Assembly (NCBI RefSeq): GCF_008477545.1
Contig: NZ_VORA01000002.1
Location: 868,001-932,000 of the forward strand
Direction: 5' to 3'
Source of the DNA: Roseibium aestuarii
Lineage (GTDB): Bacteria > Pseudomonadota > Alphaproteobacteria > Rhizobiales > Stappiaceae
DNA length: 64,000 bases
The stretch's first letter is position 1. Each line of letters starts with the position of its first letter. The position numbers and the translations under genes are program-made. The notes beneath the pieces were generated by a model. The model had not been told where the DNA came from. It searched no databases and saw nothing but the letters and a program-made list of their open reading frames with translations. Of this stretch, positions 30,762-43,919 are shown piece by piece.

Positions 30762-31499
30762 TCACGACAGATGATAGGTCGCCGTCGTCCGGTCGAAACC
30801 GAAGATGGACAGGCCGCGTCCAAAAGCCTCGTGCAGCTGCGCCCGCAGGGCGAGACGTGCCGCCAGTCCTGCGTCCGGGTCTGCCGCAAGCAGGGCGGGA
30901 AAGTCCTGCGGAATGGAAATCGTCTCACCGGCGTCGGTCACATCGGCTCTCGGCGCAACCGTTTCGCCGCGGGCCCGTGCCACCACACCCGGCGCGTCCA
31001 GATGCCATTCCGCCATCACCCGGTCGGATGGGACGCCCTTGTTGATGCCTTCCATCGGACCGTAATAGTCGTCCAGATAGACATTGGCCGTCGCGCCGAG
31101 TGCGGCAATGTTCAGGCTCGCATTGACCTTGCGGATCGGATCATAGGTCCAGCGGATGCGCGTGATGCCCCGCGCCAGGCACCAGTCGCGCTGATACCAC
31201 TTGAGCCGCGACCCGAGCCGCAGACCGCGTGCATCCGGGTGCACCGCCAGCCGGTGCGAATGCTGCACCTTCGGATCGAGGGTCGGGAAACTGAGGACGA
31301 AGGCCACCATGCGCCCGCCCTCGAAGGCGCCCGCCACGCAGGCTCCCTCGCTCTGCAGGGCGAAGAGGATATCCGCATTGTCGGGAATGTCGTCCTCGCC
31401 CCATGTGGCCCGCTGCAACACTTCCGCCTGCTTGAACTCGGCCAGAGAGGCGAGGTCCCGCAGCACCAGATCGCCGGAGACGCCGCTCTCGCCGCTCAC
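30762..31499 (-). CDS. GNAT-fold N-acyltransferase linked to the enolase
   Basis: 245 residues. A GNAT acetyl-CoA-type fold is visible at about 1-150: LRDLASLAEFKQAEVLQRATWG, then LAVHPDARGLRLGSRLKWYQRDWCLARG, which is the CoA-pyrophosphate loop region (R-x2-x-G-x-G/S variant), and IRWTYDPIRKVNASLNIAALGA. It starts at GTG 31499, overlapping the enolase stop by 4 bp. Family members beside N-succinylamino acid racemases have been shown to act as succinyl-CoA:D-amino acid N-succinyltransferases (Geobacillus), so N-acylation of an amino acid or amine is the best guess. Exact substrate unknown. Confidence 0.78.
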   Translation of the reverse strand: MSGESGVSGDLVLRDLASLAEFKQAEVLQRATWGEDDIPDNADILFALQSEGACVAGAFEGGRMVAFVLSFPTLDPKVQHSHRLAVHPDARGLRLGSRLKWYQRDWCLARGITRIRWTYDPIRKVNASLNIAALGATANVYLDDYYGPMEGINKGVPSDRVMAEWHLDAPGVVARARGETVAPRADVTDAGETISIPQDFPALLAADPDAGLAARLALRAQLHEAFGRGLSIFGFDRTTATYHLS

Positions 31500-32617
31500 G
31501 GGCGCATCTCCTGCACCAGCGTGCTGACCGTTTCCAGATAGGGACGGTCGAGCGTGACCCCGATGCCGGCCCCGTTGCGCGGCACCGGCATGCGTCCGCC
31601 CACCGCTTCCAGCGGCTCGTTGACGATGTCGCGGGCGAAATAGCGGCTTGCGCTGGAGGTGTCGCCCGGCTTGGTGAAATTCGGCAGTGTCGCCAGATGA
31701 ATGTTGTGGGCCCGGCCGATGCCGGCTTCCAGCATGCCGCCGCACCAGACCGGCGCGCCGAAGGCCGCCGACACGTCGTGAATGGCACGTGCCTCCCGGT
31801 GCCCGCCGACCCGGCCGACCTTGATGTTGATCACCCGGCCGGCACGCGATTCCAGCGCCTTGCGCGCATCCACGGCCGTGCGGATGCTCTCGTCCAGACA
31901 GATCGCCGTCTTCAGCGCCGCCTGCACCTGGGCGTGATCGTGAATGTCGTCGAAGGCGAGCGGCTGCTCGATATAGTCGAGATTGAAATCGTCCAGCGCC
32001 CGCAGGACCGGCAGATCAACCAGTCCATAGTCGGTATTGGCGTCCACGGTCAGCTTGGCATGGGGGAAGGCTGCGCGCACGGCGGCGACCATCTCCACGT
32101 CATGACCCTGGCGGATCTTCAGCTTGACCCGCTTGTAACCCGCCTCGACGGAGGCCGCGACCCGTTCCAGCGTCGTCTCGATGGAGGCAATGCCGAGGCT
32201 CACGCCCACGTCGATCGCATCGCCGCGCCCGCCGAGCACCGCCTGCAGCGGCTGGTCGAGGCTCTTGGCCCAGAGATCCCAGAAAGCCATTTCCACGGCC
32301 GCACGTGCCATGCGGTTGCCGCGCCAGGGCGCCAGCACCGGCTCCAGATCCGCCGGCGAGGCAAAGCGTTTGCCCACCACCTGCGGCAGCAGATAGGTGG
32401 TCATGAAGTCCAGCGTGCCGGCGACCGTTTCTTCCAGATAATCGGGAAGAACATCCATCACGCCTTCGGAAATGCCTTCCAGACCGCCCGACTTCAGCAC
32501 GAGCAGCGGAAAGACCTTCTCCGTCATCGTGCCAGTGGAAATGACGAAGGGGGTGAGCAGAGGCAGGCGGACGAGGCGAAGCTCGGCGGCATCGATGAGC
32601 AGACCGGAGGAGGACAT
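31496..32617 (-). CDS. enolase-superfamily enzyme, N-acylamino acid racemase / o-succinylbenzoate synthase type
   Basis: 373 residues with the capping domain first (PLLTPFVISTGTMTEKVFPLLVL) and a TIM barrel carrying the NSAR/OSBS catalytic set: KLKIRQG (KxK), TVDANTDY (metal Asp), YIEQPLAFDD (metal Glu), CLDESI (metal Asp) and INIKVGRVGG (opposing Lys). No menaquinone genes are near, so racemisation of an N-acyl (N-succinyl) amino acid is more plausible than menaquinone synthesis. Coupled by a 4-bp overlap to the GNAT gene and preceded by an amino-acid binding protein gene. No desuccinylase/deacylase is visible in the cluster. Confidence 0.85.
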   Translation of the reverse strand: MSSSGLLIDAAELRLVRLPLLTPFVISTGTMTEKVFPLLVLKSGGLEGISEGVMDVLPDYLEETVAGTLDFMTTYLLPQVVGKRFASPADLEPVLAPWRGNRMARAAVEMAFWDLWAKSLDQPLQAVLGGRGDAIDVGVSLGIASIETTLERVAASVEAGYKRVKLKIRQGHDVEMVAAVRAAFPHAKLTVDANTDYGLVDLPVLRALDDFNLDYIEQPLAFDDIHDHAQVQAALKTAICLDESIRTAVDARKALESRAGRVINIKVGRVGGHREARAIHDVSAAFGAPVWCGGMLEAGIGRAHNIHLATLPNFTKPGDTSSASRYFARDIVNEPLEAVGGRMPVPRNGAGIGVTLDRPYLETVSTLVQEMRP

Positions 32618-32680
32618 GACGGTTCTTTCAAGCGGGAAGCGCCTCAGGCGCGATCACGGCGACCGGCCGTGAGGAAGGCC

Positions 32681-32706
32681 CGGCAGGGTCGCGAGCGACC
32701 CTGCCG
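32681..32706 (-). other. strong intercistronic hairpin between binding protein and enolase genes
   Basis: CGGCAGGGTCG (32681-32691) and CGACCCTGCCG (32696-32706) form a perfect 11-bp stem with a 4-base loop, 28 bases after the binding-protein stop. Without a T-run on the minus strand it likely stabilises or attenuates the transcript between a highly expressed binding protein and two enzymes. Confidence 0.65.
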
Positions 32707-32734
32707 GAGGAACGGACACGAAGGTCTGCCCCAC

Positions 32735-33514
32735 TCATTTCATCGTATAGACGTCGATGCTGAAGTACTTGTCGTTGATGGCCTTGTAGGTGCCGTCTTC
32801 GCGGATTTCCTTCAGGGCAGCGTTCATGCGCTCGCGCAGGTCGCCATCTTCCTTGCGCACGGCGATACCGACGCCGTCACCGACGAACTTGCGCTCGGTG
32901 ATCGGTTCGCCGGCCAGCTCGCAGCAGCTGCCGTCGTCGGACTTGGTCACCCAGTCCAGCATCGGCAGCATGTCGCCGACCTGCATGTCGAGGCGGCCGT
33001 TGGCCAGATCCAGGTTGGCTTCGTCCTGGGTCGGATAGAACTTGATCTCTGCATCCGGATAGGTCGCATCAATGTAGTCGGCCTGCGTGGTGCCGCCCTG
33101 TGCGCCGATCACCTTGCCCTTGAGGGCTTCATTGGTGAACTCGGTGATGTCCGAGCCCTTCGGCACGACATGGGTCATGGCCGCCAGGTAGTAGGGGTCG
33201 GTGAAGTCGACGACTTCCTTGCGCTCGTCGGTGATGAACATCGAAGCGATGATGAAGTCGTACTTCTTGGCCAAAAGGCCCGGGATGATGCCGTCCCAAT
33301 CCTGGGTGACGATCTCGCACTCGACGCCCATCTTCGCGCAAAGCGCCAGGCCGATCTCGATGTCGAAGCCGGCCACGGTGCCGTCGGCTTCCATGTAGTT
33401 GAAGGGAGGATAGGCGCCTTCGGTGCCCAGCTTCAGGGTCTCGGCAGACGCCGCGGACCACATGGACCCGGCCAGCAGAACCCCGGCAATTGCGGATTTC
33501 ATCAGGGATTTCAT
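32735..33514 (-). CDS. amino-acid ABC transporter periplasmic binding protein (family 3)
   Basis: 259 residues with a signal peptide (MKSLMKSAIAGVLLAGSMWSAASA) and the HisJ/ArgT-type fold: LKLGTEGAYPPFNYMEADGTVAGFDIEIGLALC, then DWDGIIPGLLAKKYDFIIASM and VDFTDPYY. These bind lysine/arginine/ornithine/histidine or opines. No permease or ATPase is adjacent, so it must share them with another system or act as an orphan. It sits between the RpiR gene (37 bases upstream) and the enolase, suggesting the ligand is related to the enzymes' substrate. Confidence 0.9.
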   Translation of the reverse strand: MKSLMKSAIAGVLLAGSMWSAASAETLKLGTEGAYPPFNYMEADGTVAGFDIEIGLALCAKMGVECEIVTQDWDGIIPGLLAKKYDFIIASMFITDERKEVVDFTDPYYLAAMTHVVPKGSDITEFTNEALKGKVIGAQGGTTQADYIDATYPDAEIKFYPTQDEANLDLANGRLDMQVGDMLPMLDWVTKSDDGSCCELAGEPITERKFVGDGVGIAVRKEDGDLRERMNAALKEIREDGTYKAINDKYFSIDVYTMK

Positions 33515-33551
33515 GTCGTTCTACTCCAGTTGGAAGGCTGTTGAACCTTGT

Positions 33552-34430
33552 TCATTTTGCAAGATGGCTGAGCGGATTGCCCACATGCCCGGTGAAACGG
33601 CCATAGAGTTCGGAGGTGCGGCGCACACGCTCCTCCACCCCTTCGCCTAAGGCCGTGAAGACGGAATTGATCAGAAGATTGCCCAGGCATCCCATGTGGG
33701 CGGTCGAATCCCAGAACTGGTTGAACTGGGTCGCCACCGCAAAGACCTCATTGCAGAGGGACGGCCCCCAGTCGCAATAGCGATCCGTAATCAGGGTCAC
33801 CGGAACCCCTTGCGCCCGCGCGGCCTCGGCCAAAAGGCGGGCGTGACGGGCATAGTGCCGCGCCTCGAACAGCACGAGGGCACGCTCCCCCTCCCCCAGC
33901 AGGACTTCGGCGAAATTGCCCGCCGACAGGTCGACGAGCTGCACCCCGTCGCGAAGATAGGTCAGCTGATTGGCAAAATACTGGGCATGGCCGCGCTCGG
34001 TCTGGAACCCGGCCACGAAGATGCGCGGCACGCTGGCCAGCCGCGCCACGACCTCGGCCCACTGCGGGCTGCGCGCCTGCTCGTAGACGGCCACGATCCC
34101 GGCGATCTCGAGTTCGAGCCCGCGGGAAAGCTGCGGTTCGCTCTCGCGGGCCTTCTGACGGAATTCATCGAGCCGGTCGCGGATCAGCCAGGGATGATCG
34201 CCGATGTCGTCGCGCAGGCTTTCCTTCAGATGGCGGAAGCTGTGATAGCCCAGCGCCCGGCAGAAACGCCCGACCGTGGGTTCGCTGACCCCGACGCTCA
34301 AGGCAAGGCTCGCCGCGGTTTCAAAGGGAAGACGGGACAGGGACGACAGCATGTAGCCCGCGAGCGCCCGTTCCGCCCGGGAGCCGTCCTTCTGAAAGCC
34401 CAGCAATTTTTCGCGCAGGTCGTCAGCCAT
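33552..34430 (-). CDS. RpiR-family transcriptional regulator (HTH + SIS)
   Basis: 292 residues: N-terminal HTH_6 domain (about 1-80, AASLALSVGVSEPTVGRFCRALGYHSFRHLKESL) and a C-terminal SIS domain (about 125-260, IFVAGFQTERGHAQYFANQLTYL, VLFEARHYARHARLLAEAARAQG). RpiR proteins usually sense phosphosugars; members next to amino-acid genes are also known. First gene of the unit with the binding protein, enolase and GNAT, so it is probably their regulator. A short GAAA-AC-TTTC inverted repeat at 34463-34472 upstream is a possible operator. Confidence 0.88.
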   Translation of the reverse strand: MADDLREKLLGFQKDGSRAERALAGYMLSSLSRLPFETAASLALSVGVSEPTVGRFCRALGYHSFRHLKESLRDDIGDHPWLIRDRLDEFRQKARESEPQLSRGLELEIAGIVAVYEQARSPQWAEVVARLASVPRIFVAGFQTERGHAQYFANQLTYLRDGVQLVDLSAGNFAEVLLGEGERALVLFEARHYARHARLLAEAARAQGVPVTLITDRYCDWGPSLCNEVFAVATQFNQFWDSTAHMGCLGNLLINSVFTALGEGVEERVRRTSELYGRFTGHVGNPLSHLAK

Positions 34431-34535: not shown

Positions 34536-34994
34536 TCAGAGCGGCAGGGCACTTTCGCGCTTCACCTCTTCCATGACCGTGAAGGACCGGGTCTCGCGAA
34601 CCCCCGGCAAGGCGGGAATGACCTCCCCCAGGAAGGTGCGATAGGACACCATGTCCGGCAGCCGCGCCTTGAGCAGGTAGTCGAACCCGCCGGCGATCAG
34701 ATGGCACTCGTGGATGCGCGGCTCTTTCGCCACCGCCGCGCCGAACCGCTCGAATCCGTCTGCCCCCGACTTGTCGAGAAGCACTTCCACGAAGACCAGG
34801 ATACCGAAGCCCAGAAGATTGGGATCAAGCGAGGCATGATACCCGGTGATGAAACCGCTCTTTTGCAGACGCTTCACCCGGTCGCTCATCGAGGTCGCGG
34901 CCAGCCCGACCTGCTCGGCCAGCGCCGCGTTCGACAATCGCCCGTTCTCCTGCAAGGCCATGAGAATCTGCCGGTCGATCTGGTCGATTTTCAT
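34536..34994 (-). CDS. Lrp/AsnC-family transcriptional regulator
   Basis: 152 residues, a complete Lrp: HTH at about 4-60 (DQIDRQILMALQENGRLSNAALAEQVGLAATSMSDRVKRLQKSGFI) and RAM ligand domain (about 70-145, ECHLIAGGFDYLLKARLPDMVSYRTFLGEVIPALPGVRETRSF). Start at ATG 34994 gives the family length; a longer frame to 35285 adds unrelated sequence. It is not clearly tied to a neighbour: the RpiR gene is downstream on the same strand and a transglutaminase operon is divergent. It senses an amino acid, identity unknown. Confidence 0.92.
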   Translation of the reverse strand: MKIDQIDRQILMALQENGRLSNAALAEQVGLAATSMSDRVKRLQKSGFITGYHASLDPNLLGFGILVFVEVLLDKSGADGFERFGAAVAKEPRIHECHLIAGGFDYLLKARLPDMVSYRTFLGEVIPALPGVRETRSFTVMEEVKRESALPL

Positions 34995-35353: not shown

Positions 35354-38300
35354 ATGACCAACAAAGCCAGCATCTACCATCTCACCCATTACAAGTATGA
35401 TCGCCCGGTCACCCTCAGCCCTCAGATCATCCGGCTCCGCCCCGCCCCGCACAGCCGCACCAAGGTGCTCTCTCACAGCCTCAAGGTCGGCCCCCAGCCC
35501 CATTTCGTGAACCACCAGCAGGACCCTTACGGCAACTGGCTATCCCGGTTCGTCTTCCCCGAGCCGGTGCGTGAACTGAAGATCGAGGTCGATCTGGTCG
35601 CCGACATGTCGGTCTACAATCCCTTCGACTTCTTCGTGGAGGAAGCGGCCGAGACCTGGCCCTTCACCTATGAGGAGGATCTGCGCCGCGACCTGTCGAT
35701 CTACACCCACGTGGAGCCGGTCGGCCCGGACTTCGAGGCCTTCATGGGCACGGTGTCCCGGGCCGAGATGGGCACGGTCGACTTCCTTGTCGCCCTCAAC
35801 ACGCATCTCTCCCAGGAGATCAGCTACATCATCCGCATGGAGCCGGGCGTCCAGACCCCGGACGAGACCCTGCGCTACAAGAAGGGCTCCTGCCGCGACA
35901 CGAGCTGGCTTCTGGTGCAGGTGCTGCGCCGCCTGGGCTTTGCCGCGCGATTCGTCTCCGGCTACCTGATCCAACTGAAGCCGGACCTGGAGGCCCTCGA
36001 CGGCCCCTCCGGCACCGACCACGACTTCACCGACCTCCACGCCTGGGCAGAGGTCTATCTGCCCGGCGCTGGCTGGATCGGGCTCGACCCCACCTCCGGC
36101 CTGCTGACGGGCGAGAGCCACATTCCCCTGTCGGCGACCCCGCATTACCGCAGCGCCGCGCCACTCTCGGGCATGGCGAGCCCGGCGGAGGTGGACTTCA
36201 ACTTCCACATGGAGGTGAAGCGCGTGGCGGAACACCCGCGCATCACCATGCCCTTCTCCGACGACTCCTGGCGCGATCTCAACGCCCTCGGCCACAAGGT
36301 GGATGAGGTGCTGTCGGCAGAAGACGTGCGCCTCACCATGGGAGGCGAACCGACCTTCGTGTCCATCGACGATTTCGAAAGCCCCGAGTGGAATACGGAG
36401 GCCGTCGGCCCGACCAAGCGCCAGAAGGCGGACGACCTGATCCGCCGCCTGCGCAAGCGTTTTGCCCCCGGCGGGTTCCTCCATTACGGCCAAGGCAAGT
36501 GGTATCCCGGCGAGACCCTGCCGCGATGGACCTTCTCCCTCTACTGGCGCAACGACGGCAAGCCGATCTGGCGCAACGCGGACCTGGTGGCGGAAGAAGG
36601 CGCGCGCACCGGTGCCGATCCGGACAAGGCCCGCGCCCTGCTGCAGACCATCGCCGAGACCCTGGACCTGGCTCCCGACTATGTGGTGCCGGCCTTCGAG
36701 GATCCAGCCGAATGGATGCTCAAGGAGCATCGCCTGCCTGAGAACGTCACACCAAAGAACTCCAAGCTGGAAGATGCCGAGACACGGCACCGCATGGCCC
36801 GCGTCTTCGACCGGGGCCTGACCACGCCTGCTGGCTTCGTCCTGCCGGTCCAGCGCTGGCAGTCCCAGGCAAAGCCGTCCGGCACCCGCTGGCGCTCGGA
36901 AAAGTGGAAGCTGCGTCGAGAGGAACTGTTCCTCATTCCCGGCGACAGCCCGGTCGGCTTCCGCCTTCCGCTCGACAGCCTGCCCCACATTCCCCCGGCC
37001 CAGTACCCTTACATCAACGTCGCCGACCCCACCCTGCCGAAGGAGCCTCTTCCGGAGTTCCCCGTCGGCGAGACGGCAGAGCGTGTCCAGCCCACCGCCG
37101 GCTTCCGCGCGGCAGGCAAGACCCAGGACATCAGCGAGCAGGTGCTCGAGGAAGGCTGGTCCGTGCGCACCGCGATCGCGGTGGAACCCCGCGACGGACG
37201 CCTGTGCATCTTCATGCCGCCGGTCGAGCGCCTGGAGGACTATCTGGAACTGATCGCAGCCGCCGAGACGGCCGCCGCCGCCCTGAACCTGCCGATCCAC
37301 ATCGAAGGCTATGCCCCGCCGACCGATCCGCGCATCAACGTCATCCGCGTGGCCCCGGACCCGGGCGTGATCGAGGTCAACATTCACCCGGCCTCCAGCT
37401 GGGATGACTGCGTTGCCACCACCGAGGCGATCTACGAGGAGGCCCGCCAGAGCCGTCTCGGCGCCGACAAGTTCATGATCGACGGCAAGCACACAGGCAC
37501 CGGCGGCGGGAACCACGTAGTCGTGGGCGGCGCGACGCCCCTCGACAGCCCGTTCCTGCGCCGTCCGGACCTTCTGCGCAGCCTCATCCTCTACTGGCAG
37601 CGCCATCCGAGCCTGTCCTATCTCTTCTCCGGCCTGTTCATCGGCCCGACCTCCCAGGCCCCGCGCGTCGACGAGGGCCGCGCCGATGCGCTCTACGAGC
37701 TCGAGATCGCGCTGTCCCAGATCAAGGCGCCGGACGAGGGACAGACCCCCTTCCCCTGGCTGGTGGACCGGCTGCTGCGCAACCTGATGGTGGACGTGAC
37801 CGGCAACACCCACCGCGCCGAGATCTGCATCGACAAGCTCTATTCGCCCGACGGCCCGACCGGCCGCCTCGGCCTGATCGAGTTCCGCGGCTTCGAGATG
37901 CCGCCCGATCCGCGCATGAGCCTGGCCCAGCAGCTGCTGATCCGCGCCATCATCGCCCGCATGTGGAAGGCCCCGCTGAAGGGCAGCCTTACCCGCTGGG
38001 GCACCGCTCTTCATGATCGGTTTATGCTGCCGCACTATCTTTGGATGGATTTTCAGGAGGTGCTGGCGGATCTGCGCGAGCACGGCTATCCCTTCCGCGC
38101 CGACTGGTTCGTAGCCCAGGCCGAGTTCCGCTTCCCCTTCTACGGCGAGACCGAGGTAGAGGGGACACGGCTGGAGCTGCGGCAGGCGCTGGAACCCTGG
38201 CATGTGATGGGCGAGACCGGCGCCATTGGCGGCACGGTGCGCTACACGGACAGTTCGACGGAGAGATTGCAGGTGAAACTGACCACCTCGGATCCGGATC

Positions 38301-38680
38301 GCTACCTCGTCACCTGCAACGGGCGGCAGGTGCCCTTGCAGAAGACGACGGAAAACGGCGTCTCCGTCGCCGGCGTGCGCTTCAAGGCCTGGCAGCCGGC
38401 CATGGCCCTGCATCCCGTTCACCCGGTTGATGCGCCCCTGACCCTCGACATCTTCGACCAGTGGAGCGGCCGCGCGGTCGGCGGCTGCGTCTATCATGTG
38501 GCCCATCCGGGCGGGCGCAACTACGAGACCTTCCCCGTCAATGGCAACGAGGCCCAGGCCCGCCGGCTGGCGCGGTTTGAGCCCCATGGCCACCGCCCCG
38601 GCGCATACCGTCCGGTTCCCGAGACCCCGCATCCGCAGTTCCCCATGACCCTCGACCTGCGTCGCCCGGCCGGATTGTAA
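35354..38680 (+). CDS. transglutaminase-like protein fused to DUF2126
   Basis: 1108 residues. Residues 5-90 form the bacterial transglutaminase N-domain, then a papain-like transglutaminase core with the catalytic triad visible: C180 (GSCRDTSW), H229 ([10 protein letters not shown]) and D245 (GLDPTSG). From about 295 to the end is the large DUF2126 domain ([67 protein letters not shown]). No signal peptide. The architecture is known from the amidoligase/ATP-grasp literature, where these operons were predicted to make or process peptide-like products, but its reaction is undemonstrated. ATG 35354 chosen as the start of the N-domain. The ATP-grasp gene follows after 4 bases. Confidence 0.9.
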
Positions 38681-38684
38681 GCGC

Positions 38685-41096
38685 ATGAACGTGCCCCTGA
38701 CCCCGCATGTGGACAAGGCGACCTTCGGCGATCTGCTCACCCGCTATCACCCCGCACCGGGGACCGCGGACGAGCTGCTCGATGCCGAGGGCCGTGTCCG
38801 CCCGGTCTGGGGACCGTTCCTGAAATATCTGGCGAGCTTGTCGCCCGAGGAGACTGCCCAGCGCTTTGCCCGCGGCACCCAGTATCTCAACGATGCCGGC
38901 GTCTTCTTCCGGTACTACGACGAAGCAGGGCCCTCGGAGCGGACCTGGCCGCTGAGCCACATTCCGATCCTCATCGACCAGTCGGACTGGCAGTCGATCT
39001 GCGATGGCCTGATCCAGCGCGCCGAGCTGCTGGAGGACGTGGTCGCCGACCTTTACGGCGACAACGAGCTGGTCGCGGGCGGACATCTTCCCGCCGGCCT
39101 GATCGCCCGCAACGCCGAATGGCTGCGGCCCATGGTCGGCCTGGAACCCCGCTCCGGCCACTTCCTGCATTTCCTCGCCTTCGAGCTCGGGCGCGGCCCG
39201 GATGGCACCTGGTGGGTTCTGGGCGACCGGGCACAGGCTCCTTCCGGCGCCGGCTTTGCTCTGGAGAACCGGGTGGCCACCACACGGATCTTCTCTGATT
39301 TCTACCCCAAGGCCCATGTTCACCGCCTCGCCGGCTTCTTCCGCCGCTTCCGCGAGACCTTGCTGAACCTGCGCGGCGAGACCGACAGCCGGGTGGCGAT
39401 CCTCACCCCCGGGCTGATGAACGACACCTATTTCGAGCATGCCTATATCGCCCGCTACCTGGGCTTCATGCTGCTCGACGGCGAAGACCTGATGGTCACG
39501 GACGGCAAGCTGATGGTGCGCACCATCGCCGGACCGCGGCCGATCAGCGTGCTCTGGCGCCGGCTGGACGCCAACTGGGCCGACCCGCTGGAACTGGACG
39601 AACAGTCACAAATCGGCACGCCGGGCATGGTCGAGGCCCTGCGCAACGGCTCGCTGACCATGATCAACGCCCTCGGCTCCGGCGTGCTGGAAACCCGCGC
39701 CTTGCTGGCCTTCCTGCCGCGCATCTGCGAGCACCTGCGCGGCGAACCGCTGAAGCTGCCCAACATCGCTACCTGGTGGTGCGGCGACGAGGCGGCGCGG
39801 GCCTATGTGGGCGACAATCTCGAGCGGATGATGATCAGCCGGTCGCTTTCCACCGGCCTGCCCTTCACCGTCGGCCCCAACGATGTGCTCGGCGGCTGTC
39901 TCGACCGCGCCAATGACAGCGACTTCCGCAAGTGGCTGGAGACGGAGGGCGAGGCCCTTGTCGGCCAGGAGGCCGTGACCCTTTCCACCACGCCGGCCCA
40001 TGTGGACGGCCAACTGGTCCCGCGCCCCATGAGCCTGCGCGTTTTCCTCGCCCGCACGGAAAAGGGCTGGGAAGTCATGTCCGGAGGCTTTGCCCGCATC
40101 GGTGGCTCCGACGAGGTCGGCGCCCTTGCCATGCAGTCGGGCGGCCGCGCGGCAGACGTCTGGATCGTGGGCGGCGCCCCCGAAAAGCCTGAGTCCCTGC
40201 TGCCCAAGGCCAATGCGCCCTATGTGCGCAGCCGCCCCAGCCTGCTGCCCGCCCGCGCCGCCGACAACCTGTTCTGGCTGGGCCGCTATGTGGAGCGGGC
40301 CGAAGGGGCCGTGCGCCTGTTGCGCGCCTATCACGCCCGTCTTGCCGAGACCGGAGACCCGGACGGCCCCGTCACCGCCGCGATCGCAGACCATCTGGAA
40401 ACCCTCGGCCTCGAACTCAAGACACCCATTCCGGAGGGCCTTCAGATGAACGTCAATGCGGCCTTGGCCAGCGCGGCCAAGGTGCGCGACCGTTTCTCCA
40501 TCGATGGCTGGCTTGCCCTCAATGACCTCTCCCGGTCCCTTACCGAGATCCGCGCCCGGCCACGCCTCGACAGCGAGGACGCCACCCTCGCCATGGGCGG
40601 GGTCCTGCGCCAGATCACCGGCTTCTCCGGCCTTGTGCACGAGAACATGTACCGCTTCGTCGGCTGGCGGTTCCTCAGCATCGGCCGCTCGCTCGAGCGG
40701 GCGCTGGCCATGTGCGCGCTCCTCGCCCGTTTCGGGGCCGACGATGCGCCCGAAGGCGCGCTCGACCTGCTGCTGGAAGTGGGCGACAGCACCCTGTCCC
40801 TGAACCAGCGCTATGCGGTGACGCTCAGCCGTGCGCCGGTTCTCGATCTGCTCGGACTGGACACCTACAATCCGCGCTCCGTACTCTATCAGCTGGAGCA
40901 TCTGCGCGATCACATCGAGGCCCTGCCGGGCGCCGACCACAATGGCCAGCCCTCGCCGCTCGCGCGCTCGGTCCTTGCCCTTTACGCCAGCCTTGCGGTC
41001 AAGACCCCGGACGACCTGTCGACCGAGGATCTGGATGACCTGAGCCTGCGAATTCGCAATCTTTCCGACGGACTGTTCTCGACCTACACCCGCTAG
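38685..41096 (+). CDS. circularly permuted ATP-grasp domain fused to alpha-E domain
   Basis: 803 residues. The first about 480 match the circularly permuted ATP-grasp type 2 family (RYYDEAGPSERTWPLSHIPILID, VEPR-type GLEPRSGHFLHFLAFELGRGPDGTWWVLGDRAQAP, YLGFMLLDGEDLMV, NALGSGVLETRALLAFLP, GRPMSLRVFL). From about 520 (ADNLFWLGRYVERAEG) to the end is the helical alpha-E domain, which many genomes encode separately; here it is a natural fusion. ATP-grasp enzymes join a carboxylate to an amine through an acyl phosphate, so a peptide or amide ligase is predicted. Between two transglutaminase-like genes in one operon. Confidence 0.9.
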   Translation: MNVPLTPHVDKATFGDLLTRYHPAPGTADELLDAEGRVRPVWGPFLKYLASLSPEETAQRFARGTQYLNDAGVFFRYYDEAGPSERTWPLSHIPILIDQSDWQSICDGLIQRAELLEDVVADLYGDNELVAGGHLPAGLIARNAEWLRPMVGLEPRSGHFLHFLAFELGRGPDGTWWVLGDRAQAPSGAGFALENRVATTRIFSDFYPKAHVHRLAGFFRRFRETLLNLRGETDSRVAILTPGLMNDTYFEHAYIARYLGFMLLDGEDLMVTDGKLMVRTIAGPRPISVLWRRLDANWADPLELDEQSQIGTPGMVEALRNGSLTMINALGSGVLETRALLAFLPRICEHLRGEPLKLPNIATWWCGDEAARAYVGDNLERMMISRSLSTGLPFTVGPNDVLGGCLDRANDSDFRKWLETEGEALVGQEAVTLSTTPAHVDGQLVPRPMSLRVFLARTEKGWEVMSGGFARIGGSDEVGALAMQSGGRAADVWIVGGAPEKPESLLPKANAPYVRSRPSLLPARAADNLFWLGRYVERAEGAVRLLRAYHARLAETGDPDGPVTAAIADHLETLGLELKTPIPEGLQMNVNAALASAAKVRDRFSIDGWLALNDLSRSLTEIRARPRLDSEDATLAMGGVLRQITGFSGLVHENMYRFVGWRFLSIGRSLERALAMCALLARFGADDAPEGALDLLLEVGDSTLSLNQRYAVTLSRAPVLDLLGLDTYNPRSVLYQLEHLRDHIEALPGADHNGQPSPLARSVLALYASLAVKTPDDLSTEDLDDLSLRIRNLSDGLFSTYTR

Positions 41097-41104
41097 AGGC
41101 TGCC

Positions 41105-41989
41105 GTGCTCTACGACATCACCCTTTCCATCCGCTACGACTATGTGGTCCCGGCGGATTCCGGACGGCAGATCCTGCGCCTTGCGCCGCGCCACCTGCCC
41201 GGGGTGCAGCATGTCCACGCCCATCACCTCGCCGTGGAACCCGATGCGGACGAGCGCTACGAGCAGGTGGACTTCTTCGGCAACCGCCAGTGCGACGTGG
41301 TCTTCCACTCGCCCCATTCCCATCTCTGTTACCGGCTGGCCGCCCGGGTGGAACGTTACGGGGGCGGCCCGAGCCTCGATTTCTCCCCCGCCCTCGATCG
41401 ACTGGCCAGCGAACTCTCGGCCATTCGCCAGATGGACGGCGACCAGCCGATCCATTTCCTCGGCCCGTCCCAGCGCGTCCCCGCCGATCCGGTCTTCCGC
41501 GACTATGCGGCCGGGTGCCTGCGCCCGGGAATGAGTGTCCAGCAGGCCGTTCTGGCCATCGGCGCGGCCCTCAACCGGGACATGACCTTCGATGCGGAAG
41601 CGACCGATGTGAGCACGCCGGTGCGCCACGCCTTCGACCAGCGCAAGGGCGTCTGCCAGGACTTCTCCCACATGATGATCGCCTGCCTGCGCAGCCTCGG
41701 CATCCCGGCCGGATATGTCAGCGGCTTCCTGCGCACCCTGCCGCCCGAAGGCAAGGAGCGTCTGGAAGGCGCGGACGCCATGCACGCCTGGGTACGCGCC
41801 TGGTGCGGACAGGAGGCCGGCTGGGTGGAATACGATCCGACCAACGCCCTCATGGTCGATCAGGACCACATCGTCGTCGCCTATGGCCGGGATTATTCCG
41901 ACGTGGCTCCGGTGAAGGGCGTGCTGCGCTCCTCGGGCAGTCAGGCCACCAGCCACGCCGTCGACGTGATCCCTCTCAAGAACGTCTGA
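41105..41989 (+). CDS. transglutaminase-like cysteine peptidase family protein
   Basis: 294 residues: N-terminal bacterial transglutaminase beta domain (1-95) and a core with C184 (GVCQDFSH), H227 (AMHAWV) and D244 (EYDPTN) forming the triad. It starts at GTG 41105 with GAGG 6 bases upstream and 8 bases after the ATP-grasp stop. No signal peptide, so cytoplasmic. Third member of the conserved operon; expected to cleave or transfer an amide bond in the product of the ATP-grasp ligase (inference from the family). Confidence 0.9.
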   Translation: MLYDITLSIRYDYVVPADSGRQILRLAPRHLPGVQHVHAHHLAVEPDADERYEQVDFFGNRQCDVVFHSPHSHLCYRLAARVERYGGGPSLDFSPALDRLASELSAIRQMDGDQPIHFLGPSQRVPADPVFRDYAAGCLRPGMSVQQAVLAIGAALNRDMTFDAEATDVSTPVRHAFDQRKGVCQDFSHMMIACLRSLGIPAGYVSGFLRTLPPEGKERLEGADAMHAWVRAWCGQEAGWVEYDPTNALMVDQDHIVVAYGRDYSDVAPVKGVLRSSGSQATSHAVDVIPLKNV

Positions 41990-42004: not shown

Positions 42005-42634
42005 TCAGTGCGCGACGTACCAGTCCTTGCGGTGATTGAGCGCGATGATGACGTTGAGCACGAGCGCGCCGAAAAGCGAAGCCGCCACCGCCATCGGCGC
42101 CAGCACCAGGAAACTGGCGGCAAAGATGCACAGATCCACCCCCAGCTGCACCCAGCCTGCCCGGAACCCGGTTCGGTCCTGAATATAGAGCGCCAGGATG
42201 CCGAGCCCGCCCGCACTCGCCCCGTGCCGGAACAGGGCGATCAACCCGACGCCGGACGTGGCGCCGGCCAGCAATGCGGCTACGAAGATGTTCAGATGGG
42301 AATAGGCGATCACCTGCGGCGCGAAATCGGCCAGGATCGAGATCATCGTCGCCGAAATGAGCGACCGCAGGGTGAAGCCCGGTCCCATGCGCATCCAGGC
42401 GAAGAGGTAGAAGGGGATGTTGATCAGGAAGAAGACGATCCCGAAGCTGTATCCGGTCGAATAGGAGATCAGCAGGGACATGCCCGCCGTCTGGCCGGTC
42501 ACCAGTCCGGCGGCCCGCAGCAACGTGACGCCGAAGGCTGTCATCAGGATGCCGAAAGCCTGCCCTTGCAGATTGTCCAGAAGCGTGTGGGTGGGCTTGC
42601 GCGGCTCCAGATCCGGGCGGTCGGAAACAGACAT
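42005..42634 (-). CDS. YitT-family membrane protein
   Basis: 209 residues with five to six helices and the YitT features GVTLLRAAGLVTGQTAGMSLLISYSTGYSFGIVFFLINIPFY and FRHGASAGGLGILALYIQDRTGFRAG. The C-terminal DUF2179 domain of Bacillus YitT is absent, as is common in proteobacteria. Function unknown; a transport role is usually guessed. It ends 15 bp from the convergent transglutaminase gene. Start ATG 42634 chosen at MSVSDRP; the longer frame to 42835 would run into the LacI gene. Confidence 0.85.
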   Translation of the reverse strand: MSVSDRPDLEPRKPTHTLLDNLQGQAFGILMTAFGVTLLRAAGLVTGQTAGMSLLISYSTGYSFGIVFFLINIPFYLFAWMRMGPGFTLRSLISATMISILADFAPQVIAYSHLNIFVAALLAGATSGVGLIALFRHGASAGGLGILALYIQDRTGFRAGWVQLGVDLCIFAASFLVLAPMAVAASLFGALVLNVIIALNHRKDWYVAH

Positions 42635-42794
42635 GATCAAGGCTCTCGGTCTCGAGCGGCGGCGCCGTGTGCCGGGCAGCCAGCCGCAGGGGAATGCGGA
42701 AGCTCCTCCAGTAGAAAGCCCGCGCCCATCCCGCAAGAGGGCAGCGCTGCTTTTCCCGCCTGCTCGGTCAGGCGTCGGCCCTGGGTCGCAGGGA

Positions 42795-43844
42795 TCAGGC
42801 CACGATCGGCGGGCAGGTGCTGTCGCGCACCACAAGCTCCACCCCGAGCGTGACCACCTCGCTGTCGCAGGCAGCGCGCCCTCCGGCGAATGGGCCGCTT
42901 GCCCCGAGCCGGTCGAGCAGCATGCGCGCCGCGGATTCCCCGAGCCGGCGCCGGTCCTGGCGGATGGTGGTCAGGGCCGGGACGTAATAGGCCGACAACT
43001 CGATATCGTCGAAGCCGATGACGGAGAGATCTTCCGGCACCCGCACGCCGCCAGCCTGAAGCGCCGAGATCAGACCGAAGGCCACCTGATCGGAGGCGCA
43101 GAAGACCGCGCTCGGCCGCTCCCGCATCTCCAGGATGCGCGCCGCCGCATGGGCGCCGGACCTGAGCGAGAAGTCTCCCCGGATGATCCATTCGTCCCGC
43201 GTCGGCAGGTTCAGTCGCGCCCGCTCCTCCAGCATCCCCTGACGCCGCATGTGGGTAAGCACGTTGTCTTCAGGCCCGGTGACATGGGCGATTCTCCGGT
43301 GCCCGAGATCATGCAGGTGACGGACGGCAAGCCGCGCCCCTTCCAGATTGTCGCTGCGCACCGAAGGCAGATGGGCATCGCGCACCCATTCGCAGGCAAA
43401 GACGATCCGCCCCTCCCCGCCCCGACTGGCCAGGGTGCGCAGATCCCGGACGCACATGCTGCCATCCAGGGAGATCATGCCGTCGACCCGGCTGTCCCGG
43501 AAGGCATCGAGCAGCGCCGGATCCTCGTGGGTCTCGCCCTTGGTGTCGGTGATGAGCACGGAATAATCCGCCTCCCCCATGACCGCGCTCAAGCCGGCCA
43601 GGATCTCTGAGAAGAAGGGGTTGCCGAGATTGGGCACGAGCACGAGAACCGCACGTGCTTCCTGCCGCCGCAGGGAGCGTGCGGCCCGGTTCACCCGGTA
43701 GCCGGTGGCGCGAATGGCCTCCAGAACCGCATCGCGAGTCCCCTCGCTGAGCAGCGCCGGATTGCTCAAGGCACGACTTACGGTTGCAGTGGATACACCC
43801 GCAGCTTTTGCAACATCCTGAATTCTAACGGGCTTTTCGACCAC
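42795..43844 (-). CDS. LacI-family regulator of the xyloside cluster
   Basis: About 350 residues: N-terminal LacI HTH (VRIQDVAKAAGVSTATVSRALSNP) with hinge helix (YRVNRAARSLRRQEARAVLVLVPNLGNPFFSE), then a periplasmic-binding-like sugar domain (LITDTKGETHEDPALLDAF to VPALTTIRQDRRRLGESAARML). Two in-frame GTGs are possible: 43850 and 43844; the GGAAGG site at 43854-43859 is better spaced for 43844. Divergent from the ABC/GH43 operon, with two LacI-type operators in between, so it is almost certainly that operon's repressor. Confidence 0.92.
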   Translation of the reverse strand: MVEKPVRIQDVAKAAGVSTATVSRALSNPALLSEGTRDAVLEAIRATGYRVNRAARSLRRQEARAVLVLVPNLGNPFFSEILAGLSAVMGEADYSVLITDTKGETHEDPALLDAFRDSRVDGMISLDGSMCVRDLRTLASRGGEGRIVFACEWVRDAHLPSVRSDNLEGARLAVRHLHDLGHRRIAHVTGPEDNVLTHMRRQGMLEERARLNLPTRDEWIIRGDFSLRSGAHAAARILEMRERPSAVFCASDQVAFGLISALQAGGVRVPEDLSVIGFDDIELSAYYVPALTTIRQDRRRLGESAARMLLDRLGASGPFAGGRAACDSEVVTLGVELVVRDSTCPPIVA

Positions 43845-43919
43845 TCGCACTCACCTTCCGATCATCCGATCAATTGCCCATTCTGTGACTTGACTCAAAC
43901 GCTTTCCGCGCAAATGATG

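Follow-up and report, generated by a model that had tools for sequence, protein, structure and literature searches.

The window analysed here, a stretch of 64,000 nucleotides (G000:C14:868001-932000) from the 4.35 Mb genome of Roseibium aestuarii, contains an operon of three plus-strand genes that fill positions 35354-41989. They encode a transglutaminase-like protein carrying a DUF2126 domain, a circularly permuted ATP-grasp protein fused to an Alpha-E domain, and a second, stand-alone transglutaminase-like protein. The operon is well conserved and belongs to an amide-bond system already known as a prediction; some anatomy is added to that system below. The gaps between the genes, 4 and 8 bases, would not accommodate a further gene. 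The features are as follows.

35354-38680, + strand: gene 1 (1108 aa), transglutaminase-like domain plus DUF2126, which Pfam describes as a putative amidoligase
35369-35602, + strand: gene 1 residues 6-83, Bact_transglu_N (Pfam, 96.6 bits)
35759-36091, + strand: gene 1 residues 136-246, Transglut_core with C180, H229 and D245 (Pfam; fold match 3isr)
36182-38662, + strand: gene 1 residues 277-1103, DUF2126, the proposed ligase (Pfam, 1340.6 bits)
38685-41096, + strand: gene 2 (803 aa), circularly permuted ATP-grasp fused to Alpha-E
38964-40100, + strand: gene 2 residues 94-472, CP_ATPgrasp_2, glutathione-synthetase-type fold with catalytic residues lost (Pfam; PDB 3n6x)
39222-39236, + strand: gene 2 residues 180-184 (GDRAQ), at the presumed Mg-binding motif E-D-N-x-R of standalone paralogues
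40245-41087, + strand: gene 2 residues 521-801, Alpha-E helical domain (Pfam, 192.2 bits; mainly helices in the model)
41105-41989, + strand: gene 3 (294 aa, GTG start), stand-alone transglutaminase-like protein with C184, H227 and D244

The operon and its conservation

Coordinates and Pfam matches bear out what the initial annotation had said of the genes, namely their number, architectures, order, strand and spacing with no other gene present, as well as the natural fusion of ATP-grasp to Alpha-E within gene 2. Genes 1 and 3 both possess the Cys-His-Asp triad of papain-fold transglutaminase-like enzymes, which in gene 3 accompanies Bact_transglu_N (residues 3-83) and Transglut_core (residues 133-245). 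The residues that had been assigned to the two triads turned out to be conserved: C180, H229 and D245 of gene 1 are each kept in 129/129 aligned relatives, and for gene 3 the counts are 117/117 for both C184 and H227 and 115/117 for D244. The proposed lack of an export signal also agrees with our analysis, in which none of the three proteins displayed a hydrophobic N-terminus (the highest 19-residue Kyte-Doolittle mean within the first 60 residues was 0.43; a signal-peptide program was not run). No membrane helix was evident in the three proteins either.

How typical is this arrangement? A 14-sequence DUF2126 alignment led to at least 593 candidate loci, of which the best 80 were taken, a sample skewed to close relatives and, by title, nearly all from Alphaproteobacteria. 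The arrangement is more than chance, because the same three genes occur in identical order in 71 of these best 80 loci. The others comprise seven with DUF2126 alone, one with DUF2126 and an ATP-grasp fragment, and one without the last gene. In all, 131 loci were considered (49, the best 80 and two from the own genome; one genome is represented twice, by L045 and L129). DUF2126 and the fused gene are co-directional in 106 of the 131, with a gap of -40 to 150 bases in 94 of these, and a transglutaminase gene lies closely 3' of the fused gene in 116, the gap being -4 to 25 bases in 106. Other frequent neighbours, named by eye from their sequences, are acyl-CoA dehydrogenase, TadG-like and altronate-dehydratase-like proteins, which we rejected as parts of the system since they seem to track taxonomy.

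Iyer et al. (2009; Mol BioSyst 5:1636) are said to have predicted, by comparative genomics, a system composed of circularly permuted ATP-grasp, Alpha-E, transglutaminase, Anbu and transglutaminase-DUF2126 proteins. All three architectures in the window belong to it (the N-terminal transglutaminase on DUF2126, the circularly permuted ATP-grasp and Alpha-E), and the conserved gene neighbourhood is shared, with ATP-grasp and Alpha-E fused in a single open reading frame (ORF) in the window. Two differences stand out: here the DUF2126 half lies 830 kb from an active-looking ATP-grasp/Anbu half, and a statistically linked zinc metallopeptidase joins the known components. We also agree with the initial annotation that the amide-bond system is a predicted one, as the literature searched yielded no demonstrated amide product. 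The system is widespread and highly conserved, and nitrogen limitation induces it strongly in two genera, yet no product was found for it, and the anatomy described here makes the product question more directly testable.

A further pairing of a transglutaminase domain with an ATP-grasp protein is found in rloABC of Pseudomonas aeruginosa, where, according to excerpts of PMC12239564, the transglutaminase, RloB, is inactive and has seven membrane helices, and the ATP-grasp protein is RloC. In the window operon, by contrast, the triads are intact and the degenerate part is the ATP-grasp.

The fused ATP-grasp and the DUF2126 domain

The structure model of gene 2 is a confident one, with a mean predicted local distance difference test score (pLDDT) of 90.2. 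Its top fold match is 3n6x (Foldseek, E 2.6e-29), which is also its sole sequence match in PDB (phmmer, 6.3e-66). Further fold matches include homoglutathione and glutathione synthetases, trypanothione synthetase, the fungal ligase Cp1B and YjfC; scores within the (homo)glutathione synthetase and Cp1B group are 6.5e-13 for 3kal, 4.4e-11 for 2hgs and 1.3e-7 for 9cjn. Gene 2 therefore has the ATP-grasp fold. In ATP-grasp ligases, the Glu-x-Asn residues serve as Mg ligands and act together with the ATP lysine and the Gly-rich loop. All of these are missing from gene 2, which shares the fold of the eukaryotic-type (homo)glutathione synthetases and Cp1B but not their presumed catalytic residues. 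The same holds in comparison with the protein in 3n6x, the standalone circularly permuted ATP-grasp Mfla_0391: it has EDNLR and GSGGYG, whereas gene 2 has GDRAQ and no such Gly loop.

The loss extends through the family. We compared 118 fused proteins (one per locus, 117 distinct; only stretches longer than 350 residues from ORFs with an Alpha-E match were used) with 27 standalone paralogues. The motif Glu is present in 2/118 fused proteins, the motif Asn in 0/118, the motif Arg in 4/118 and the ATP Lys in 10/118 (the alignment being uncertain there), and the Gly-Gly-Tyr-Gly loop is unconserved, whereas each of these elements is found in 27/27 standalone proteins. A smaller comparison of 46 fused and 26 standalone proteins revealed the same loss. 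What replaces the motif is itself conserved: Arg stands for Asn in 110/118 fused proteins and Gln for Arg in 100/118, while the Asp after the Glu position is kept in 112/118. Moreover, fused and standalone ATP-grasps form one clean split with support 1.0 under LG and WAG alike. Because of the conserved replacements and this split, the pattern argues for a retained pseudo-enzyme rather than decay, and the fused ATP-grasp is, judging from these residues, probably a conserved pseudo-ligase.

It could be objected that the fused ATP-grasp is active through other Mg-ATP residues, with the transglutaminases trimming or transferring its product and DUF2126 acting as a structural appendage. The overall fold of the gene 2 model is indeed intact, and several pocket residues persist in the fused forms, including, besides the Asp of the motif, the Arg of LRPF (116/118), the Arg of LTRV (114/118) and the Asp of KDTW (112/118). 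However, the Glu is gone in 116 and the Asn in all 118 of the fused proteins, the Lys and the Gly loop are unconserved, and residues presumed to be equivalent are needed in Cp1B. For the latter, excerpts of PMC12568646 report that replacing R139, D141, E163 or N165 by alanine left significantly attenuated activity or none; the fold match suggests that E163 and N165 may correspond to the E-x-N motif. Taken together, these points make an active fused ATP-grasp very improbable.

The loss itself is probably already known, since the Pfam text on CP_ATPgrasp_1 reportedly mentions inactive forms fused to Alpha-E; via that text, Iyer et al. (2009) are said to have noted both these forms and the DUF2126 fusion. 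The counts given above come from the present analysis.

The likelier ligase is DUF2126, a putative assignment based on its annotation and conservation. Among 129 DUF2126 sequences (128 distinct), 62 positions occupied by charged residues, Asn, Gln, His or Cys are conserved in at least 99% of the sequences reaching them. E332, Q380, K382 and E387 are present in 129/129 relatives, and E674, N676, H721, R771, E774, H820, R821, E823, E843, R845 and E848 in 121/121 each, the remaining 8 sequences being gapped there. The initial annotation had taken the ATP-grasp for the ligase of the operon, a role that does not fit a domain whose Glu-x-Asn, Lys and Gly loop are lost throughout the sampled family while DUF2126 keeps dozens of near-invariant polar residues. 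It had left out both the putative amidoligase annotation of DUF2126 and the missing catalytic residues of the ATP-grasp. In practical terms, the pseudo-ligase reading changes which protein should be purified first, making DUF2126 the domain to assay.

A second set and the associated hydrolases

The same genome carries a standalone ATP-grasp (an ORF of 495 aa), Alpha-E, a transglutaminase and Anbu at C14:69140-73333, 830 kb from the operon. Anbu (C14:72602-73333) is thus found with this second set and is absent from the window operon. Judged by its residues, the standalone set looks catalytically intact. Because of this second set, the window operon is half a system and not a self-contained pathway, and on our reading it should depend on the other half to function.

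The second set resembles the Anbu operons of Yersinia, Pseudomonas and other bacteria (excerpts of PMC6376114 and PMC5666114). The window operon shares with these operons paralogous ATP-grasp, Alpha-E and transglutaminase families but differs in lacking Anbu, in having a degenerate, fused ATP-grasp and in the addition of DUF2126. The ATP-grasp of the Yersinia bercovieri Anbu operon, which belongs with the standalone group and not with gene 2, is reported to release phosphate from ATP (PMC6376114, in excerpt).

To see how regularly the two halves occur together, we used 249 genomes drawn from the phylum; the p-values below are not corrected for relatedness. DUF2126 was detected in 71 and Alpha-E in 132 of them, Alpha-E being present in 71/71 genomes with DUF2126 versus 61/178 others (Fisher p 1e-25). 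By our reading of the matches, standalone Alpha-E occurs in all 71 DUF2126 genomes and fused Alpha-E in 63. Anbu is present in 42 of the 71. The standalone ATP-grasp shares a stretch with DUF2126 in 25/48 fetched neighbourhoods, and Anbu does so in 11/49 stretches. In family f25 (L068, L072 and L074, genome G212), DUF2126 is accompanied by Anbu, and the fused pseudo-ATP-grasp was not detected.

The statistically linked component is a zinc-ribbon metallopeptidase of the Peptidase_Mx type (PF10005 and PF15887). It was found within the fetched DUF2126 flanks at 18/131 loci, at varied positions and in several families, and in two more genomes it adjoins Anbu and the standalone set. Peptidase_Mx is encoded in 34/249 genomes, of which 33 have Alpha-E (p 2e-9) and 24 have DUF2126 (p 4e-8); two of the 34, G200 and G217, have short matches, the main one with an in-frame stop. 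The link is mostly one of shared presence, because in 13 of 15 places outside DUF2126 loci no other component is adjacent. These include the gene of the own genome (G000:C20:11439-12659, equal to L171:5440-6660, minus strand), which is unlinked to the operon. A narrow literature search returned no paper tying Peptidase_Mx to the system, to which it adds one more gene of interest. We also considered whether Anbu and Peptidase_Mx are alternatives and rejected the idea, as they are not complementary: among the 71 DUF2126 genomes 18 have both, 6 Peptidase_Mx only, 24 Anbu only and 23 neither. In-frame stops were seen in the Peptidase_Mx gene of G200 and in the second Anbu copy of G246; because of them, both hydrolases look losable.

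The presence of several unrelated hydrolases alongside ligase families would also suit protein tagging, in which ligases tag proteins with an amino acid or a small peptide and the transglutaminases, Anbu and Peptidase_Mx remove the tag or degrade the protein. Excerpts of PMC6376114 mention such a role as one predicted in print for the Anbu/ATP-grasp/Alpha-E set; those of PMC5666114 give the prediction as one of a peptide-synthesis system. Set against this, Anbu was undetected in 29 of the 71 DUF2126 genomes, the Anbu proteins tested had no detected peptidase activity in the excerpted part of PMC6376114, and no tag gene was evident in the 40 largest neighbour clusters, which cover ORFs of at least 90 aa, so that a short tag would escape. 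We consider tagging somewhat unlikely.

Proposed mechanism and nitrogen physiology

Three observations carry our interpretation: an ATP-grasp fold without its Mg-ATP residues throughout the sampled family, a strictly conserved DUF2126 joined to an intact transglutaminase, and standalone Alpha-E in each of the 71 genomes with DUF2126. On balance, though by no means firmly, we think it probable that a cytoplasmic system in two parts makes and breaks amide bonds (peptide or isopeptide), that the operon is its accessory half and that DUF2126 is the ligase there. DUF2126 would be the ATP-dependent ligase of the operon, and the pseudo-ATP-grasp/Alpha-E protein a non-catalytic platform that binds and presents either the acyl or the amine component. 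Thioester intermediates may arise on both transglutaminase domains, which would then transfer the amide or split it by hydrolysis. The first amide would be provided or consumed by the intact ATP-grasp set at C14:69-73 kb, and Anbu and Peptidase_Mx would be optional hydrolases. A more elaborate version, a layered machine in which the dead ATP-grasp/Alpha-E protein is the platform for DUF2126-transglutaminase, works in trans with an active glutathione-synthetase-like ligase and has Peptidase_Mx as the eraser, appears unlikely.

According to excerpts of PMC5491218, genes I35_5080-83 of Burkholderia cenocepacia, encoding DUF404/DUF407, DUF403, transglutaminase-like and large transglutaminase-like proteins, are down 6.0-9.4 fold in an ntrC mutant and depend on NtrC and sigma-54; the large transglutaminase-like protein is probably of the DUF2126 type. 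In Pseudomonas putida, PP_2685 and PP_2688 are reported to respond to nitrate versus ammonium with log2 values of 4.44 and 3.99 (PMC8050072, in excerpt), and PP_2686-PP_2688 to rise 11-15 fold in the wild type under nitrogen limitation (PMC7801951, in excerpt). Excerpts of PMC3597751 state that marine metagenomes show the DUF403/404/407 domains clustering with urea metabolism. Since nitrogen limitation induces the related Pseudomonas and Burkholderia sets, an amide that serves to scavenge or store nitrogen would be favoured over housekeeping modification, by analogy with those organisms.

These data speak for a small-metabolite pathway, in which the cell would scavenge or store nitrogen by making and cleaving gamma-glutamyl- or polyamine-type amides; the fold kinship with glutathione and trypanothione synthetases and YjfC points the same way. 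On the other hand, the results from P. putida bear on the Anbu set and not on DUF2126, and the operon contains no nitrogen-metabolism gene. Sites were scored by the sigma-54 -24/-12 consensus and its spacing. Sigma-54 control of the window operon had to be rejected, as the 300 bases preceding position 35354 hold no GG/GC pair at the right spacing, and the best sigma-54-like site of the own Anbu set has 7/10 consensus bases. Among relatives, however, the site is enriched: at least 9/10 consensus bases were matched upstream of the standalone ATP-grasp in 7/27 loci, against a control of 1.5%, and ahead of DUF2126 in 9/128, against 1.1%, three of the nine representing one genus. Furthermore, mutation of rpoN leaves PP_2686-PP_2688 induced 14-20 fold, and in the same study PP_2685, which is Anbu, changes just 1.12 fold in the wild type (PMC7801951, in excerpt). 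We regard a small-metabolite pathway as a serious possibility, if somewhat short of probable.

The missing sigma-54 site upstream of the window operon, the poor one of the own Anbu set and the two rpoN-study results likewise count against a two-part system with DUF2126 as its ligase, and so do the following observations. The putative ligase activity of DUF2126 is proposed from annotation and conservation. The gene 1 model is only fair (mean pLDDT 73.8), and all five of its fold matches at E < 0.001 are of the transglutaminase type, with none for DUF2126. Nor was a sequence relative of DUF2126 found in PDB, where a DUF2126-only profile gave 5 weak matches (E 0.8-1.5) to lincosamide-resistance and cellulase chains. 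The abstract of Iyer et al. (2009) reportedly refers to a glutamine-synthetase-like fold, which we could not confirm for DUF2126. Profile-profile comparison (hhalign) with glutamine synthetase and GCS2 alignments built from related genomes, including a tandem-doubled alignment to allow for circular permutation, gave a best E of 0.081 and a probability of 0.7% against glutamine synthetase, but as the positive control, glutamine synthetase against GCS2, reached only 0.3%, the comparison lacks power. In the same weak top alignment, EVNIHP and GTGGGNH face a glutamate stretch and the GxGxH motif of glutamine synthetase.

The partnership of DUF2126 with the fused gene also has exceptions. No fused gene lies beside DUF2126 in 8 of the best 80 loci; contig ends truncate some of these, and at least four (L115, L128, L143 and L160) are flanked by 10 kb of sequence in either direction. 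By our reading of the matches, 8/71 DUF2126 genomes show no fused ORF, four of which may reflect assembly gaps, and in G191 DUF2126 and the fused gene are on separate contigs. Conversely, nine genomes (L242-L250, with two Alpha-E matches each) have a long fused ATP-grasp/Alpha-E ORF and no DUF2126 match; a transglutaminase adjoins the fused ORF in eight of them, and one, G149, is 74% complete with its match on a 4.3 kb contig. Because of these nine, the pseudo-ligase would not simply be the platform of DUF2126. Finally, excerpts of PMC6376114 report neither Anbu peptidase activity nor specific interactions among the Anbu-operon proteins of Y. bercovieri.

The genes flanking the operon are all on the minus strand. 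Divergent from it is an Lrp/AsnC regulator (34536-34994), rejected as a dedicated regulator because, beyond itself, the ORFs of the fetched loci gave only three matches, and none of them adjoins the operon. Downstream (42005-43850) lie a YitT-family membrane protein and a LacI-type regulator, apparently unrelated to the operon. Further upstream, at 31496-34430, a mandelate-racemase/enolase-superfamily protein, a family-3 solute-binding protein and an RpiR-type regulator possibly form a cluster for amino-acid uptake and conversion.

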